A DNA stretch of 64,000 nucleotides, from the NCBI RefSeq assembly GCF_038087665.1, contig NZ_CP149925.1:1551236-1615235 (forward strand), written 5' to 3'. The stretch comes from Gallaecimonas sp. GXIMD4217. Lineage in GTDB: Bacteria > Pseudomonadota > Gammaproteobacteria > Enterobacterales > Gallaecimonadaceae. Each line of letters opens with the position of its first letter. Position 1 is the stretch's first letter. The position numbers were made by a program, and so were the translations under genes. This document shows positions 19,205-25,988 of this stretch, piece by piece. Under the pieces are notes generated by a model, which was not told where the DNA came from, searched no databases, and saw only the letters and a list, made by a program, of their open reading frames with translations.

Positions 19205-20332
19205 ATGGTAGATAAAGCATTGGGTGGCGCCGGCCTGCGTGGCCAGGTCGCCGGACAAACCAGCATCTGTACCGTCGGCACCGCCGGCAACGGCCTGCAT
19301 TACCGCGGCTACGACATCGAGACCCTGGCCGAGCATGCCTCCTTCGAGGAAGTGGCCTACCTGCTGCTGCGTGGCAAGCTGCCCAACGTCGCCGAACTTG
19401 GCGACTACAAGGCCAAGCTCAAGGGCCAGCGCAAGCTGCCGGCCGTGCTCTGCGACGTGCTGGAGAAGATCCCCGCCGACGCCCACCCCATGGACGTGCT
19501 CAGGAGCGGCTGCTCCGTGCTGGGCAACCTGGAGCAGGAAGGCGACTTTGCCAACCAGATGGACGTGGCCGACCGCATGCTGGCCGCCTTCCCGGGCATC
19601 ATCAACTACTGGTACCGCTTCAGCCACGACGGCGTGCGCATTGATACCGACTCCGACTGCGACAGCATCGGCGGCCACTTCCTGGCCCTGCTGCACGGCA
19701 AGACCCCGTCGGAGCTGCACGAGAAGGTGATGAACGTGTCCCTCATCCTCTACGCCGAGCATGAGTTCAACGCCTCCACCTTCACCGCCCGGGTCTGCGC
19801 CTCCACCCTGTCCGACATGCATTCCTGCGTCACCGGCGCCATCGGCTCCCTGCGTGGCCCCCTGCACGGTGGCGCCAACGAGGCGGCCATGGAGCTGATC
19901 GAAAACTGGCAGGACGAGGCCGAGGCCGAGGCCAGCCTCAAGGGCATGCTGGCGCGCAAGGAAAAGATCATGGGCTTCGGCCATGCCGTGTACCGCAGCA
20001 AGGATCCCCGCAACGCCGTGATCAAGCAGTGGTCCAAGGAGCTGGCCGGCGAATTCGGCGACGACCGCCTGTACCGGGTCTCGGAAACGGCCGAGCGGGT
20101 CATGTGGGAAGAGAAGAAGCTGTTCCCCAACGCCGACTTCTTCCACGCCAGCGCCTACCACTACATGGGCATCCCCACCAAGCTGTTCACCCCCATCTTC
20201 GTATGCTCGCGGGTGTCCGGCTGGACCGCCCACATCATGGAGCAGCGCGCCAACAACCGCATCATCCGCCCCTCCGCCGAATACACAGGCCCGGGCGTGA
20301 CCGAATGGGTGCCGCTGGACAAGCGCTCCTAA
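19205..20332 (+). CDS. prpC: 2-Methylcitrate synthase
   Basis: PrpC condenses propionyl-CoA with oxaloacetate. Citrate-synthase hallmarks are the His of GPLHGGANEAAM (near H221), the His of MGFGHAVYR (near H260) and the Asp of NADFFHASAYHYMGI. The N-terminal GLRGQVAGQTSICTVG is typical of the methylcitrate type, and the length (375 aa) is that of PrpC rather than of GltA (about 430). A hairpin follows the stop. Confidence 0.96.
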   Translation: MVDKALGGAGLRGQVAGQTSICTVGTAGNGLHYRGYDIETLAEHASFEEVAYLLLRGKLPNVAELGDYKAKLKGQRKLPAVLCDVLEKIPADAHPMDVLRSGCSVLGNLEQEGDFANQMDVADRMLAAFPGIINYWYRFSHDGVRIDTDSDCDSIGGHFLALLHGKTPSELHEKVMNVSLILYAEHEFNASTFTARVCASTLSDMHSCVTGAIGSLRGPLHGGANEAAMELIENWQDEAEAEASLKGMLARKEKIMGFGHAVYRSKDPRNAVIKQWSKELAGEFGDDRLYRVSETAERVMWEEKKLFPNADFFHASAYHYMGIPTKLFTPIFVCSRVSGWTAHIMEQRANNRIIRPSAEYTGPGVTEWVPLDKRS

Positions 20333-20417: not shown

Positions 20418-23015
20418 ATGAATACCGCTTATCGCAAACCCCTGGCCGGCACCCAGCTGGACTACTTCGATACCCAGGCCGCCGTCGACGCCATTGCCCC
20501 CGGCGCCTACGCCAAGCTGCCCTATACCTCCAGGGTGCTGGCCGAGAACCTGGTGCGCCGCTGCCCGCCGGACAGGCTGACCGATTCCCTGAAGCAGATC
20601 ATCGAGCGCAAGCGCGACCTGGACTTCCCCTGGTTCCCGGCCCGGGTGGTCTGCCATGACATCCTCGGCCAGACCGCCCTGGTGGACCTGGCTGGCCTGC
20701 GTGACGCCATCGCCGAGCAGGGCGGCGATCCGGCCAAGGTCAATCCGGTGGTGCCGACCCAGCTGATCGTCGACCACAGCCTCGCCGTCGAGCACGGCGG
20801 CTTCGACAAGGACGCCTTCGACAAGAACCGCGCCATCGAGGACCGCCGCAACGAGGATCGCTTCCACTTCATCAACTGGTGCAAGACCGCCTTCGAGAAC
20901 GTGGACGTGATCCCCCCCGGCAATGGCATCATGCACCAGATCAACCTGGAAAAGATGTCGCCGGTGGTCCATGCCCGTGACGGCGTCGCCTTCCCGGATA
21001 CCCTGGTGGGCACCGACAGCCACACCCCCCACGTGGATGCCCTGGGCGTCATCGCCGTGGGCGTGGGCGGCCTGGAAGCCGAAAGCGTCATGCTGGGTCG
21101 CGCCTCCTACATGCGCCTGCCGGACATCGTTGGCGTCGAGCTGACCGGCAAGCCCCAGCCCGGCATCACCGCCACCGACATCGTGCTGGCCATCACCGAG
21201 TTCCTGCGTGCCGAGAAGGTGGTCGGCGCCTACCTGGAGTTCTTCGGCGAGGGTGCCGCCGCCCTGACCCTGGGCGACCGCGCCACCATCTCCAACATGA
21301 CCCCGGAATACGGCGCCACCGCCGCCATGTTCTACATCGACGGCCAGACCATCGACTACCTGCGCCTGACCGGCCGTGACGACGAGCAGATCAGGCTGGT
21401 GGAAAACTACGCCAGGACCACCGGCCTCTGGGCCGACAGCCTGGAAGACGCCGAGTACGAGCGGGTGCTGCGCTTCGACCTGTCTTCCGTGGGCCGCAAC
21501 ATCGCCGGCCCTTCCAACCCCCATAAGCGGGTGCCCGTGGCCGAGCTGGCCCAGCGCGGCATCGCCGGCGCCTGGCAGAAGGAAGAGGGCAGGATGCCGG
21601 ATGGCGCCGTGATCATCGCCGCCATCACCAGCTGCACCAACACCTCCAATCCCAGGAACGTCATCGCCGCCGGCCTGTTGGCCCGTAATGCCAACAACAA
21701 GGGCCTGGTGCGCCAGCCTTGGGTGAAGACCTCCCTGGCCCCCGGCTCCAAGGCCGTGCAGCTGTACCTGGAAGAGGCAGACCTGCTGCCGGAGCTGGAG
21801 CAACTGGGCTTTGGCATCGTCGGCTTTGCCTGTACCACCTGTAACGGCATGAGCGGCGCCCTGGACCCCAGGATCCAGCAGGAGATCATCGACCGCGACC
21901 TCTACGCCACCGCCGTGCTGTCCGGTAACCGCAACTTCGACGGCCGCATCCACCCCTATGCCAAGCAGGCCTTCCTGGCCTCGCCGCCGCTGGTGGTGGC
22001 CTATGCCATTGCCGGCACCATCCGTTTCGACATCGAGAAGGATGTGCTGGGCCATGACGCCGACGGCAAGCCGGTGACCCTCAAGGACATCTGGCCGAGC
22101 GACGAGGAAATCGACGCCGTCATCAACCGTTGCGTCAAGCCCGAGCAGTTCAAGGCCGTTTACGAGCCCATGTTCGATCTCAAGGTGGACTTCGGCGACA
22201 AGGGCAACCCGCTCTACGACTGGCGCCCCATGAGCACCTATATTCGCCGTCCCCCCTATTGGGAAGGCGCCCTGGCCGGCGAACGGTCCCTGAGCGGCAT
22301 GCGCCCCCTGGCGGTGCTGGGTGACAACATCACCACAGACCACCTGTCGCCCTCCAACGCCATACTGGCGTCCAGCGCCGCCGGCGAGTACCTGGCCAAA
22401 ATGGGCCTGCCGGAGGAGGACTTCAACTCCTACGCCACCCACCGTGGCGATCACCTGACCGCCCAGCGCGCCACCTTTGCCAACCCCAAACTGTTCAACG
22501 AGATGGTGTTGGATGAAAACGGCGAGGTGAAGCAGGGCTCCCTGGCCCGCATCGAACCCGAAGGCCAGGTGACCCGCATGTGGGAAGCCATCGAGACCTA
22601 CATGGACCGCAAGCAGCCACTGTGCATCATCGCCGGCGCCGACTACGGCCAGGGCTCCAGCCGCGACTGGGCCGCCAAGGGCGTACGCCTGGCCGGGGTC
22701 GAGGCCATAGTGGCCGAGGGCTTCGAGCGCATCCACCGCACCAATCTGATCGGCATGGGCGTGCTGCCGCTGCAATTCGAGGCCGGCACCACCCGCAAGA
22801 CCTTAGGGATAGACGGCACCGAGACCTTCGACGTGGTCGGCGAGCGCACCCCGAGCGCGACCCTGACCCTGGTCATCCGTCGCCAGAATGGCGACACGGC
22901 AGAGGTGCCGGTGCTGTGTCGCCTGGATACCGCCGAAGAGGTGACCATCTATGAGGCCGGTGGTGTGTTGCAGCGCTTTGCACAGGATTTCCTGGCGGCG
23001 GAAGCGGCGCACTAA
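20418..23015 (+). CDS. acnD: Fe/S-dependent 2-methylisocitrate dehydratase AcnD
   Basis: AcnD is an aconitase-like enzyme that dehydrates 2-methylcitrate. It makes a 2-methyl-aconitate isomer that needs PrpF before rehydration. The [4Fe-4S] cysteines are in ITSCTNTSNP and CTTCNGMSG. GTDSHTPHVDALG and the swivel-domain GADYGQGSSRDWAAKG are conserved. The frame is open further upstream, but MNTAYRKPLAGTQLDYFDT is the family start, giving 865 aa. The usual genetic partner prpF follows after a terminator and an odd inserted segment. Confidence 0.95.
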   Translation: MNTAYRKPLAGTQLDYFDTQAAVDAIAPGAYAKLPYTSRVLAENLVRRCPPDRLTDSLKQIIERKRDLDFPWFPARVVCHDILGQTALVDLAGLRDAIAEQGGDPAKVNPVVPTQLIVDHSLAVEHGGFDKDAFDKNRAIEDRRNEDRFHFINWCKTAFENVDVIPPGNGIMHQINLEKMSPVVHARDGVAFPDTLVGTDSHTPHVDALGVIAVGVGGLEAESVMLGRASYMRLPDIVGVELTGKPQPGITATDIVLAITEFLRAEKVVGAYLEFFGEGAAALTLGDRATISNMTPEYGATAAMFYIDGQTIDYLRLTGRDDEQIRLVENYARTTGLWADSLEDAEYERVLRFDLSSVGRNIAGPSNPHKRVPVAELAQRGIAGAWQKEEGRMPDGAVIIAAITSCTNTSNPRNVIAAGLLARNANNKGLVRQPWVKTSLAPGSKAVQLYLEEADLLPELEQLGFGIVGFACTTCNGMSGALDPRIQQEIIDRDLYATAVLSGNRNFDGRIHPYAKQAFLASPPLVVAYAIAGTIRFDIEKDVLGHDADGKPVTLKDIWPSDEEIDAVINRCVKPEQFKAVYEPMFDLKVDFGDKGNPLYDWRPMSTYIRRPPYWEGALAGERSLSGMRPLAVLGDNITTDHLSPSNAILASSAAGEYLAKMGLPEEDFNSYATHRGDHLTAQRATFANPKLFNEMVLDENGEVKQGSLARIEPEGQVTRMWEAIETYMDRKQPLCIIAGADYGQGSSRDWAAKGVRLAGVEAIVAEGFERIHRTNLIGMGVLPLQFEAGTTRKTLGIDGTETFDVVGERTPSATLTLVIRRQNGDTAEVPVLCRLDTAEEVTIYEAGGVLQRFAQDFLAAEAAH

Positions 23016-23027
23016 AACCGTTTGCAA

Positions 23028-23052
23028 GCGCCGCCTGCGGGCGGCGCTTTTT
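23028..23052 (+). terminator. Intrinsic terminator after acnD
   Basis: Stem GCGCCGCC (23028-23035), loop TGCG, stem GGCGGCGC (23040-23047) and five T. It separates acnD from the prpF fragment and prpF. Confidence 0.88.
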
Positions 23053-23069
23053 GTTAAGGATTGAATCGA

Positions 23070-23123
23070 ATGAGTTCCAAGCCCCAAATCCGTATTCCTG
23101 CCACCTGTATGGGGGGCGGCTAG
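23070..23123 (+). pseudogene. Vestigial duplicate of the prpF 5' end
   Basis: Seventeen codons read MSSKPQIRIPATCMGGG and then TAG. The intact prpF 207 bases downstream begins MFKPQIRIPATYMRGG. Over 42 bases (23079-23120 versus 23286-23327) the two copies agree at 36 positions. AAGGA stands 9 bases before this ATG, so it retains a usable ribosome site. It looks like the original prpF start cut off by an insertion or duplication, though a functional upstream short ORF cannot be excluded. The two copies are in the same frame, with only this TAG between them. Confidence 0.75.
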
Positions 23124-23130
23124 CGGATTG

Positions 23131-23236
23131 CTGCAGCCAATCACCTTCCCTGGCGATTGGCTGCGGCGCGGCAAAAAAGTGCGACTTTTTTGTCGCTTGC
23201 AAGCACGGTGTGCTTGGCGGTAAATCCCTTTACCGC
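23131..23236 (+). repeat. Four tandem stem-loops between the prpF fragment and prpF
   Basis: Four consecutive inverted repeats fill 106 bases. First, GCAGCCAATC (23133-23142) pairs with GATTGGCTGC (23155-23164), extendable to 12 bp with one G-T pair. Second, AAAAAAGT-GCG-ACTTTTTT (23173-23191). Third, CAAGCAC-GGT-GTGCTTG (23200-23216). Fourth, GCGGTAAA-TCCC-TTTACCGC (23217-23236), directly abutting the third. No protein gene lies here. It could be a small non-autonomous palindromic element or a structured leader of prpF. Confidence 0.7.
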
Positions 23237-23279
23237 GGATGTGCCGCTCATCGACCTTCTCGTGATCACGGAGTTTGTT

Positions 23280-24455
23280 ATGTTCAAGCCGCAAATTCGT
23301 ATTCCCGCCACCTATATGCGTGGCGGCACCTCCAAGGGGGTCTTCTTCAAGCTGGACGACCTGCCAGAAGCCGCCCAGGTGCCGGGCGAGGCCCGTGACC
23401 GACTATTGCTACGGGTCATTGGCAGCCCGGATCCCTACGGCAAGCAGACCGACGGCATGGGCGGCGCCACCTCCAGCACCTCCAAGACGGTGATCCTGAG
23501 CAGGAGCGCGCAACCGGACCATGACGTGGACTACCTGTTCGGCCAGGTGGCCATCGACAGGCCCTTCGTGGACTGGAGCGGCAACTGCGGCAACCTTACC
23601 GCCGCCGTGGGCGCCTTCGCCATCAACGCCGGCCTGGTGGATGCCGGGCGCATTCCCGACAACGGCATCTGCACCGTGCGGATCTGGCAGGCAAACATCC
23701 ACAAGACCATCATCGCCCGGGTGCCCATCACGGGTGGCGAGGTCCAGGAAACCGGCGACTTCGAGCTGGACGGGGTGACCTTCCCGGCCGCCGAGGTGGA
23801 AGTCGCCTTCCTGGATCCCGCCGCCGGCGAGGGCGCCCTGTTTCCCACCGGCAAGCTGGTGGATGAGCTGGCGGTACCCGGTGTCGGCACCTTCCGAGCG
23901 ACCCTGATCAACGCCGGCATCCCCACCATCTTCCTGGACGCCGAGGCCCTGGGCTACAGCGGCGCCGAGCTTCAGGACGACATCAACAACGATGCCGAGG
24001 CCCTGGCCAGGTTCGAGCTTATCCGCGCCCATGGCGCCGTCAAGATGGGCCTGATCGGCCATGTGGACGAGGCCGCCGGCCGCCAGCACACCCCCAAGGT
24101 GGCCTTCGTGGCGCCGGCCAGGGACTATGTGGCCTCCAGTGGCAAGGCCGTCAAGGCGGGCGACATCGATCTGCTGGTGCGGGCCCTGTCCATGGGCAAG
24201 CTGCACCACGCCATGATGGGTACCGCCGCCGTGGCCATAGGCGCCGCCGCGGCTATTCCCGGCACCCTGGTCAACCTGGCCGCCGGTGGCGGTGAGCGCA
24301 AGGCGGTGACCTTCGGCCATCCTTCCGGCACCCTCAAGGTGGGCGCCGAGGCCAGCCAGCAGGGCGGTGACTGGACCATCACCCAGGCCAGCATGAGCCG
24401 CAGCGCCCGCATCCTGATGGAAGGCTGGGTGCGCATCCCGGGCGACAGCTGCTGA
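23280..24455 (+). CDS. prpF: 2-Methylaconitate isomerase PrpF
   Basis: PrpF isomerises the 2-methylaconitate made by AcnD so that it can be hydrated to 2-methylisocitrate. It has the diaminopimelate-epimerase-like two-domain fold. The N-terminal IPATYMRGGTSKGVFF and the central SGNCGNLTAAVGAFAI motifs are visible. GGAG stands 7 bases before the ATG at 23280. The frame is open upstream to 23124, through the stem-loop region, so a longer translation is formally possible but unlike the family. Length is 391 aa, as expected. Confidence 0.94.
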   Translation: MFKPQIRIPATYMRGGTSKGVFFKLDDLPEAAQVPGEARDRLLLRVIGSPDPYGKQTDGMGGATSSTSKTVILSRSAQPDHDVDYLFGQVAIDRPFVDWSGNCGNLTAAVGAFAINAGLVDAGRIPDNGICTVRIWQANIHKTIIARVPITGGEVQETGDFELDGVTFPAAEVEVAFLDPAAGEGALFPTGKLVDELAVPGVGTFRATLINAGIPTIFLDAEALGYSGAELQDDINNDAEALARFELIRAHGAVKMGLIGHVDEAAGRQHTPKVAFVAPARDYVASSGKAVKAGDIDLLVRALSMGKLHHAMMGTAAVAIGAAAAIPGTLVNLAAGGGERKAVTFGHPSGTLKVGAEASQQGGDWTITQASMSRSARILMEGWVRIPGDSC

Positions 24456-24501: not shown

Positions 24502-24575
24502 ATGTCCGGCAGCACTGGCAAAGGCCTTAAAAGGGACTTGAATACAGGTAAGTGCGATCTTCCGTGAGGGCCGCC

Positions 24576-25988
24576 ATGGCCAAGTACGATCCCCTGCTGG
24601 TCGAGATAGCCGACTATGTCTGCGATGCAGACATCACGTCCGAGCTGGCCCTGGAAACGGCCCGCCATTGCCTGCTGGACAGCCTGGGCTGCGCCATGCT
24701 GGCCCTGGGTTACCCTGAATGCGCCCGGCTGCTGGGGCCTTGGGGACCGGGCACAGTGGTACCGCACGGCGCCCGGGTGCCGGGCACCGATTTCGAGCTG
24801 GATCCGGTCAAGGCCGCCTTCGACATCGGCTGCTGCATCCGCTGGCTGGACTACAACGACACCTGGCTGGCGGCGGAGTGGGGCCATCCTTCCGACAACC
24901 TGGGCGCCATACTGGCGGTGGCGGACTGGCGGTCGCGCCGGGCCGGGGGCAGGGCGCCCCTGACCATGGAGACCGTGCTCCAGGCCATGGTCAAGGCCCA
25001 TGAGATCCAGGGGGTACTGGCCCTTGGCAACAGCTTCAACAGGGTCGGCCTGGATCACGTGGTATTGGTCAAGCTGGCCAGCACCGCCGTGGCCGCCCAG
25101 CTGCTGGGCGGCAGTCGGGAGCTGGTGCTGGCCGCCTTGTCCCAGGCGGTGGTGGATGGCCAGGCCCTGCGCACCTATCGCCATGCCCCCAATACCGGCC
25201 CCCGCAAGTCCTGGGCCGCCGGCGACGCCACCAGCCGGGCGGTACGCCTGGCGTTGATCACCCTGGCCGGCGAGCCCGGCTACCCCAGCGCCCTCAGCGC
25301 ACCCCACTGGGGCTTCCAGGACGTGCTGTTTGGGGGAAAAGACATCACCCTGGCCAGGCCGCTTGGCAGCTACGTGATGGAGAACGTGCTGTTCAAGATC
25401 GATTTTCCCGCCGAGTTCCACGGCCAGACCGCCGTAGAATGCGCCCTGGCCCTGCACCCCAAGGTGAAGGACAGGCTGGATGATATCGATCGAATCGAGC
25501 TATTTACCCAAGAAAGCGCCATGCGCATCATCGACAAGACGGGACCGCTGAGCAACTTCGCCGACCGGGATCACTGCCTGCAGTACATGGTCGCCGTGGG
25601 GCTCATCTTCGGGGAGCTGACGGCGGATCACTACAGCGACGAGACGGCGGCGGACCCCCGTATCGACAGGCTGAGGGGCAAGATGGTGGTCCGGGAGGAC
25701 AGGGCCTACAGCGCCGATTACCTGGACCCGGACAAGCGCGCCATCGCCAATGCCGTGCAGGTGTTTTTCACCGACGGCAGCGCCACCGACAAGGTGGAGG
25801 TGCAGTACCCTATCGGCCACCGCAGGCGCCGCCACGAAGGGCTCCCCAGGCTCAAGGCCAAGGCCCTGGCCAATCTACAAGGCCGCTTCACCGAGGCGAG
25901 GGCCGAGGCCCTGCTCGAGCTGATGGGCGACGGCGAGCGGCTGGCGGCCATGGCGGTAGACGATTTCATGGCGTTGTGGCGCCCCTGA
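24576..25988 (+). CDS. prpD: 2-Methylcitrate dehydratase PrpD
   Basis: PrpD, of the MmgE/PrpD family, dehydrates 2-methylcitrate without an iron-sulfur cluster. Long stretches match the E. coli enzyme, for example [52 protein letters not shown] and [12 protein letters not shown]. GTGs at 24552 and 24564 are in frame, but the ATG at 24576 follows GAGGG and starts at family-conserved sequence. Length is 470 aa (E. coli 483). Having PrpD beside AcnD and PrpF duplicates the dehydration step. Confidence 0.95.

Follow-up and report, generated by a model that had tools for sequence, protein, structure and literature searches.

Comparative sequence evidence for a four-hairpin repeat element inserted at the 5' end of prpF in Gallaecimonas

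The hairpin cluster between acnD and prpF

Ahead of prpF in Gallaecimonas sp. GXIMD4217 (genome size 3.35 Mb) four stem-loops follow one another with almost no spacing, which raises the question of whether they form a small mobile repeat, a structured leader of the gene or a chance structure. The window analysed here, the whole stretch of 64,000 nucleotides, carries the operon in the order prpC (19205-20332), acnD (ending at 23015), prpF (23280-24455) and prpD (24552-25988), as named by NCBIfam. The acnD-prpF interval opens with a terminator-like hairpin, continues with a 51-nt ATG-initial open stretch up to the TAG at 23121 and then enters the four hairpins (Table 1). The terminator stretch (23026-23052, 27 nt) recurs exactly elsewhere in the source genome, at G000:C1:1496437-1496463, and near-exactly in genome G021.

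All four stem-loops described in the initial annotation are present. The arms of H1 (23130-23145/23152-23167) are 16 nt long and 88% complementary and those of H2 (23168-23180/23184-23196) 13 nt long and 92% complementary, while the arms of H3 (23200-23206/23210-23216) and H4 (23217-23224/23229-23236) are paired at 7 of 7 and 8 of 8 positions; H3 and H4 do abut, at 23216/23217. The RNA fold of 23124-23279 has an energy of -74.1 kcal/mol (z -6.6); shuffled sequences average -50.7, and none of 200 is as low. The hairpin density had also been placed above that of the rest of the window. Among 6,390 segments compared, the 106-nt one at 23131 ranks first on the plus strand and second on the minus strand after GC correction, but only 33rd and 74th by raw energy, so that the claim holds for the corrected values and not for the raw ones.

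The prpF frame indeed lacks a stop from 23124 onwards, the last one being the TAG at 23121-23123. The suggested in-frame insertion is borne out to that extent; the segment does not, however, extend the protein, whose conserved N-terminus comes from an ATG further downstream that has a ribosome-binding site of its own. Taken as a protein, the 52-codon insert frame has no Pfam match, and NCBIfam matches its prpF tail only; its tblastn matches in relatives (E 0.04 to 0.7) look like chance. A likeness of the insert to a res site or to aceK or selU fragments found no support and was dropped.

Table 1. Features of the acnD-prpF interval and the start of prpF (positions in the window)
Feature	Positions	Strand	Basis
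Terminator-like hairpin between acnD and prpF	23026..23049	+	Inverted repeat I6; predates the insertion, present in the G004 empty site
c1, original prpF 5' end, 17 codons (MSSKPQIRIPATCMGGG), degraded	23070..23120	+	Alignment to G004 prpF start
TAG closing the c1 frame; opening bases of the 207-bp insertion (23121-23327)	23121..23123	+	Sequence; G004 comparison
Hairpin H1	23130..23167	+	Inverted repeat, fold, family alignment
Hairpin H2, AAAAAAGT-GCG-ACTTTTTT	23168..23196	+	Inverted repeat, fold
Hairpin H3	23200..23216	+	Inverted repeat
Hairpin H4, TCCC loop	23217..23236	+	Inverted repeat, family alignment
R1', 5' arm of fifth stem H5; 11 nt, 10/11 complementary to prpF codons 15-18	23237..23247	+	Inverted repeat I4, four-genome comparison, folds
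GGAG, presumed ribosome-binding site of functional prpF	23270..23273	+	Sequence
Functional prpF, 391 aa; its new 5' end is c2 (MFKPQIRIPATYMRGG)	23280..24455	+	TIGR02334 E 1.3e-224; PF04303
R2', prpF codons 15-18, 3' arm of H5	23323..23333	+	Inverted repeat I4, four-genome comparison, folds

Insertion into the start of prpF

In a sister genome (G004, PrpF 86% identical), acnD, the same terminator and prpF are joined directly, and this locus serves as the empty site. Because the G004 prpF start aligns both to 23070-23120 (c1) and to the start of the functional prpF (c2), the window carries 207 extra bases (23121-23327), made up of 159 bases without a match in G004 and a second copy of 16 codons. 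Read 5' to 3', the order at the locus is thus c1, hairpins, the stretch complementary to codons 15-18 of prpF, the new ribosome-binding site and c2. Over 43 nt, c1 and c2 share 86% identity. Six positions in the last 14 codons differ between them, three with an amino-acid change, and conserved residues have been replaced in c1 (Y to C, R to G); c2, over the same codons, has only silent differences from other prpF starts and is preceded by its own GGAG. Judged by this comparison, the hairpin segment was inserted into prpF near its start.

When 97 acnD-prpF spacers were compared (the window plus 96 loci; 3 of 99 loci lack acnD), a long copy of the prpF start was found only in the window and in Bowmanella yangjiangensis (L087), and in two other spacers the prpF start was matched over 10-14 nt. 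In Bowmanella the order is prpF-start copy, four hairpins, prpF-codon complement, ribosome-binding site and prpF, and in the alignment of this spacer with the window 15 of 37 pairs are changed on both sides with pairing kept. A covariance model built from these two copies (R1) and searched in 394 genomes of the order retrieved the window's own copy and one in G132 (E 2e-17), that is, 2 of 394 genomes; the G132 match (L141) again lies between a prpF-start copy and prpF. A second model from the three prpF copies (R2) found G419 (L142), which makes carriers of 2 of the 152 genomes of G132's family. As in G132 and L087, the G419 locus has the prpF 5' copy, four hairpins, the complement and prpF. 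The element is directly ahead of prpF in all four cases (window, L087, G132 and G419), the four cores have a shorter form of H3 in common, and the core is set between direct repeats of 43 to 68 nt. Other matches were read as chance: L143-L145 (R2 family search, E 0.03-0.1), which lie in coding DNA, and L059 (covariance-model match, E 0.018).

The 10-12 nt directly after H4 (R1') are complementary to the genome's own prpF codons 15-18 in 4 of 4 genomes, with 41 of 44 cells paired, and in each genome R1' matches the third base of the local Gly codon (G-C, A-T, T-A and T-A). The fifth stem formed in this way, H5, is present in the minimum-energy fold of all four prpF leaders, and its loop holds the ribosome-binding site. 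An alternative fold in which R1' pairs with the c1 end is 6.4 to 13.6 kcal/mol less stable in these leaders.

In L087, G132 and G419 the differences between c1 and c2 are solely synonymous (3, 1 and 2, respectively), and the c1 copies of G132 and G419 are separated by three silent changes. There is a hint here that c1, a putative leader peptide of 16-17 codons, may be kept where it is intact. In most cases the c2 nearest to a given c1 is the one in the same genome. In a PrpF tree of 103 rows the carriers fall in three places, which needs three changes; well-supported branches force at least two of these, and a single change is enough in 0% of bootstrap trees, although the tree taken alone is compatible with one gain and two losses. 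The PrpF proteins of G132 and G419 group with Lysobacter and G042, apart from G009 and others of their own family, which suggests that prpF may have been transferred in these two genomes.

A repeat family in other Gammaproteobacteria

R2 matches at E<=0.01 were obtained in 16 of 369 genomes of the class, the source genome and 15 others (best 1.6e-9). Fourteen of these 15 further gammaproteobacterial genomes appear convincingly to hold true relatives, H3-H4 being recognisable in L155, L158 and L159, and the remaining match, L160, looks like chance. In an alignment of 18 cores (A6; 14 copies from 11 of the 15 genomes, and the four prpF copies) 84.4% of the cells are paired, compared with 68.9% after shuffling, and the covariation score is 0.378 against 0.147, with 0 of 500 shuffles as high and the slid controls also far exceeded; these statistics lean towards the structure, since it was voted from the same 18 sequences.

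A covariance model built from the 18 cores (R3) was searched in 38 genomes. In seven of the genomes with relatives it matched repeatedly: 84 times in G533, 37 in G627, 51 in G822, 15 in G645, 55 in G672 and at least 93 times in each of G581 and G639; these are numbers of matches and not of copies, because a palindrome can match on both strands, and in G639 at least 65 separate places are found among the matches listed. Bowmanella has two R3 matches, of which the second lies upstream of a gene whose product begins MCGIAG, and Microbulbifer mangrovi likewise two, one between grpE-like and dnaK-like frames and one ahead of a prs-like frame (names read from the translations). The MAG B19_G6 has one match and Thiobaca trueperi one weak match. 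In the source genome the single match is its own copy, and four congeners gave none.

GGAANCTCTGA and its inverse mark the two ends of many of the multi-copy relatives, and the motif occurs once more inside them, after H4. Among 18 copies chosen for having both ends (several other copies are without them), which carry the terminal inverted repeats GGAANNTCTGA / TCAGANNTTCC, an exact 4-bp target duplication is present in 14, compared with 33 of 306 comparisons between flanks of different copies; other duplication lengths were found in 0 to 1 of the 18. The target choice of these relatives may be IS5-like. Tandem arrays of the four-hairpin unit were also seen, in G533 (L147 and L171, the latter with a period of about 124) and in G672 (L150); the L147 array directly follows a tRNA-Leu-like gene and the L150 array lies within a tRNA cluster.

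The window copy has the core structure of the multi-copy family in R2, R3 and A6, and homology beyond structure rests on short motifs. On this comparative ground we assign the hairpins to a family of repeats that other Gammaproteobacteria carry in many copies. The small palindromic mobile element proposed at the outset is therefore supported in kind, as a repeat family elsewhere and an insertion into the prpF 5' end, and the covariance-model search of relatives that had been advised returned homologues and compensatory changes. A second genomic copy, named there as the sign of a repeat family, was not found in the source genome: sequence searches gave only the element itself and an 18-nt match (E 0.85) in coding DNA, the H2 pattern with three mismatches matched only itself on both strands, and R3 with permissive filters gave no second copy. 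The four prpF copies are without the GGAANCTCTGA termini and the 4-bp duplication and are flanked by 43-68 nt direct repeats instead; these differences, together with the shorter H3, suggest that their route of insertion differs or has been lost.

Searched as DNA in the 394 genomes of the order, the insert gave short matches in 10 other genomes (19-39 nt long, with E 9e-5 to 0.009); these lie in other genes and were attributed to chance. Plasmid and phage searches gave no match to the element, and the viral contigs included none with prpF and none with the exact H3-H4 pattern. Rfam gave no match at E<=10 for 23060-23345 and no gathering-score match for the element, and holds no such family. 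No described family was recognised in the literature by words or sequence strings, and an earlier description is possible.

Origin and possible roles of the prpF copies

Taken together, these comparisons make it probable that a MITE-like element of four hairpins, present as one old copy, inserted inside the 5' end of prpF and now forms a structured leader. On this view the first 17 codons stayed upstream as the relic c1, and with the insertion came a new ribosome-binding site and the new 5'-end copy c2, so that PrpF stays whole. The leader could set prpF translation or transcript stability via the hairpins and H5; it might steady or insulate the prpF transcript, and it may slow prpF translation through H5. 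We infer that the segment regulates prpF, and the earlier suggestion of a structured 5' leader gains partial support, in that covariation is seen when the structures of prpF leaders from different lineages are compared. Against this explanation stand the lack of a second copy in the source genome and of any match in its four congeners, the termini and 4-bp duplication missing from the prpF copies, the failure of Rfam and of the plasmid, phage and viral searches to put a name to the family, and also the fact that structured acnD-prpF spacers are common, the window's ranking 16th by fold z-score among the 60 of at least 40 nt.

The separate lineages could also go back to one ancient insertion into prpF, followed by loss from most lineages through c1/c2 recombination or by spread through homologous recombination, with no repeated insertion. 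We give this account somewhat less than an even chance. The long direct repeats flanking the core would make precise loss easy, and all four prpF cores have the short H3 form; the three changes needed on the PrpF tree, at least two of them forced, argue against it, as does the closeness of c1 to its own c2, which would need gene conversion. It is rather unlikely that the segment is a cis-regulatory RNA of prpF first, an attenuator or riboswitch-like leader, and a repeat only secondarily. Here R1' could pair with either the c1 end or prpF codons 15-18, and because of these two partners translation of c1 could switch prpF. The constant position directly ahead of prpF in four genomes, the way in which R1' tracks the local Gly codon, the R1'-prpF stem in every minimum-energy fold and the synonymous-only differences between c1 and c2 in Bowmanella, G132 and G419 would all suit such a leader, but the alternative c1 pairing is costly, the arrangement is rare both in the order and in G132's family, the window's c1 has amino-acid changes and its own TAG, and Rfam recognises nothing in the region.

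SXT integrates at prfC by replacing the 5' end of the gene, and the doubled start of prpF, whose copies have diverged and which has gained a ribosome-binding site, could similarly be the scar of a larger integrative element. This is very improbable, since the same unit of ~200 bp with the same ends occurs in four genomes, no integrase was seen, no viral contig bears prpF and the core has multi-copy stand-alone relatives. Chance structure, or repair filler DNA between the halves of a local duplication, would fit the single copy in the source genome and is given almost no weight, being refuted by the covariation and the homologues.

Bacterial MITEs such as ERIC, Correia/NEMIS, YPAL/RU-2 and QMITE are described in PMC10969869 and PMC2229807 as non-coding elements of ~150 bp with strong hairpins, terminal inverted repeats and short duplications. 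The multi-copy relatives fit these features, but the element has four separate conserved hairpins, and its prpF copies carry a gene 5'-end copy and no recognisable terminal inverted repeat or short duplication. Rickettsia palindromic elements, which the same papers place in frame within genes, are similar in that respect; they are translated within the protein, whereas here prpF restarts downstream and the window's c1 frame stops at TAG. REP/BIME sequences, according to PMC2817692, are likewise intergenic, transcribed, multi-hairpin and present in many copies, but the multi-copy relatives of our element have terminal inverted repeats and 4-bp duplications. Palindromic repeats usually either disrupt genes or sit in the intervals between genes; this element is found at one and the same codon of a single gene in separate lineages, each time with the start rebuilt. 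The prpF copies may thus provide a natural test of how a tiny element inserts harmlessly and becomes a leader, and the parent family is widespread and undescribed in Rfam.

A further pattern lies on the opposite strand. The minus strands of the 18 A6 cores contain CANGGANG 24 times, against a mean of 0.8 and a maximum of 5 in 500 shuffles, and the plus strands contain it 0 times. The motif sits within the H1 and H4 loops or at their edges. It is present in H4 of 14 of 14 non-prpF cores (related copies from 11 genomes, and hence not 14 independent cases) and also in the H1 half of nine, and the longer ACARGGAUGU is found in 10 of the 14. Among the prpF copies the full motif is kept in one of four, in the window's H1, whose loop region reads CAGGGAAG on the minus strand, a CsrA/RsmE-type CANGGANG. 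The motif was not selected for, because the search model was built on prpF copies that mostly lack it. PMC6692469 and PMC7652899 give the CsrA consensus as RUACARGGAUGU and (A/U)CANGGANG(U/A); in the latter, CsrA hairpins tend toward short stems, unlike those of the four-hairpin element. Since the prpF mRNA is the plus strand, the motif would not act on prpF in the ordinary sense.

In its minus-strand loops the element resembles CsrA sponges of the CsrB/RsmX/RsmV type, and several copies have sub-threshold Rfam RsmX/RsmV matches (L150, E 0.034; L152, E 0.86; L171, L167 and L181, E 0.8-4.6), all far below the gathering scores; a sponge, however, is one sRNA gene, whereas the element is dispersed MITE-like DNA. 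We regard as doubtful a joint reading in which the family is a mobile CsrA/RsmA-binding element and its prpF branch a guide-bearing, gene-sparing insertion at one codon in three lineages. Under it, the minus-strand H1 and H4 loops might present the high-affinity CsrA consensus, so that each new copy would add a decoy or control site; R1' might match the target across the junction, the 5' end being rebuilt from host sequence each time. With a textbook CsrA-binding consensus on its minus strand, the repeat family might be coupled to a global regulator.

Finally, 15 of the 59 other acnD-prpF spacers of at least 40 nt have a lower fold z-score than that of the window, and hairpin-rich spacers were seen at L047, L034, L069, L060, L030, L061, L053, L082, L019 and L005. 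Palindromic repeats may commonly insert in the interval upstream of prpF.
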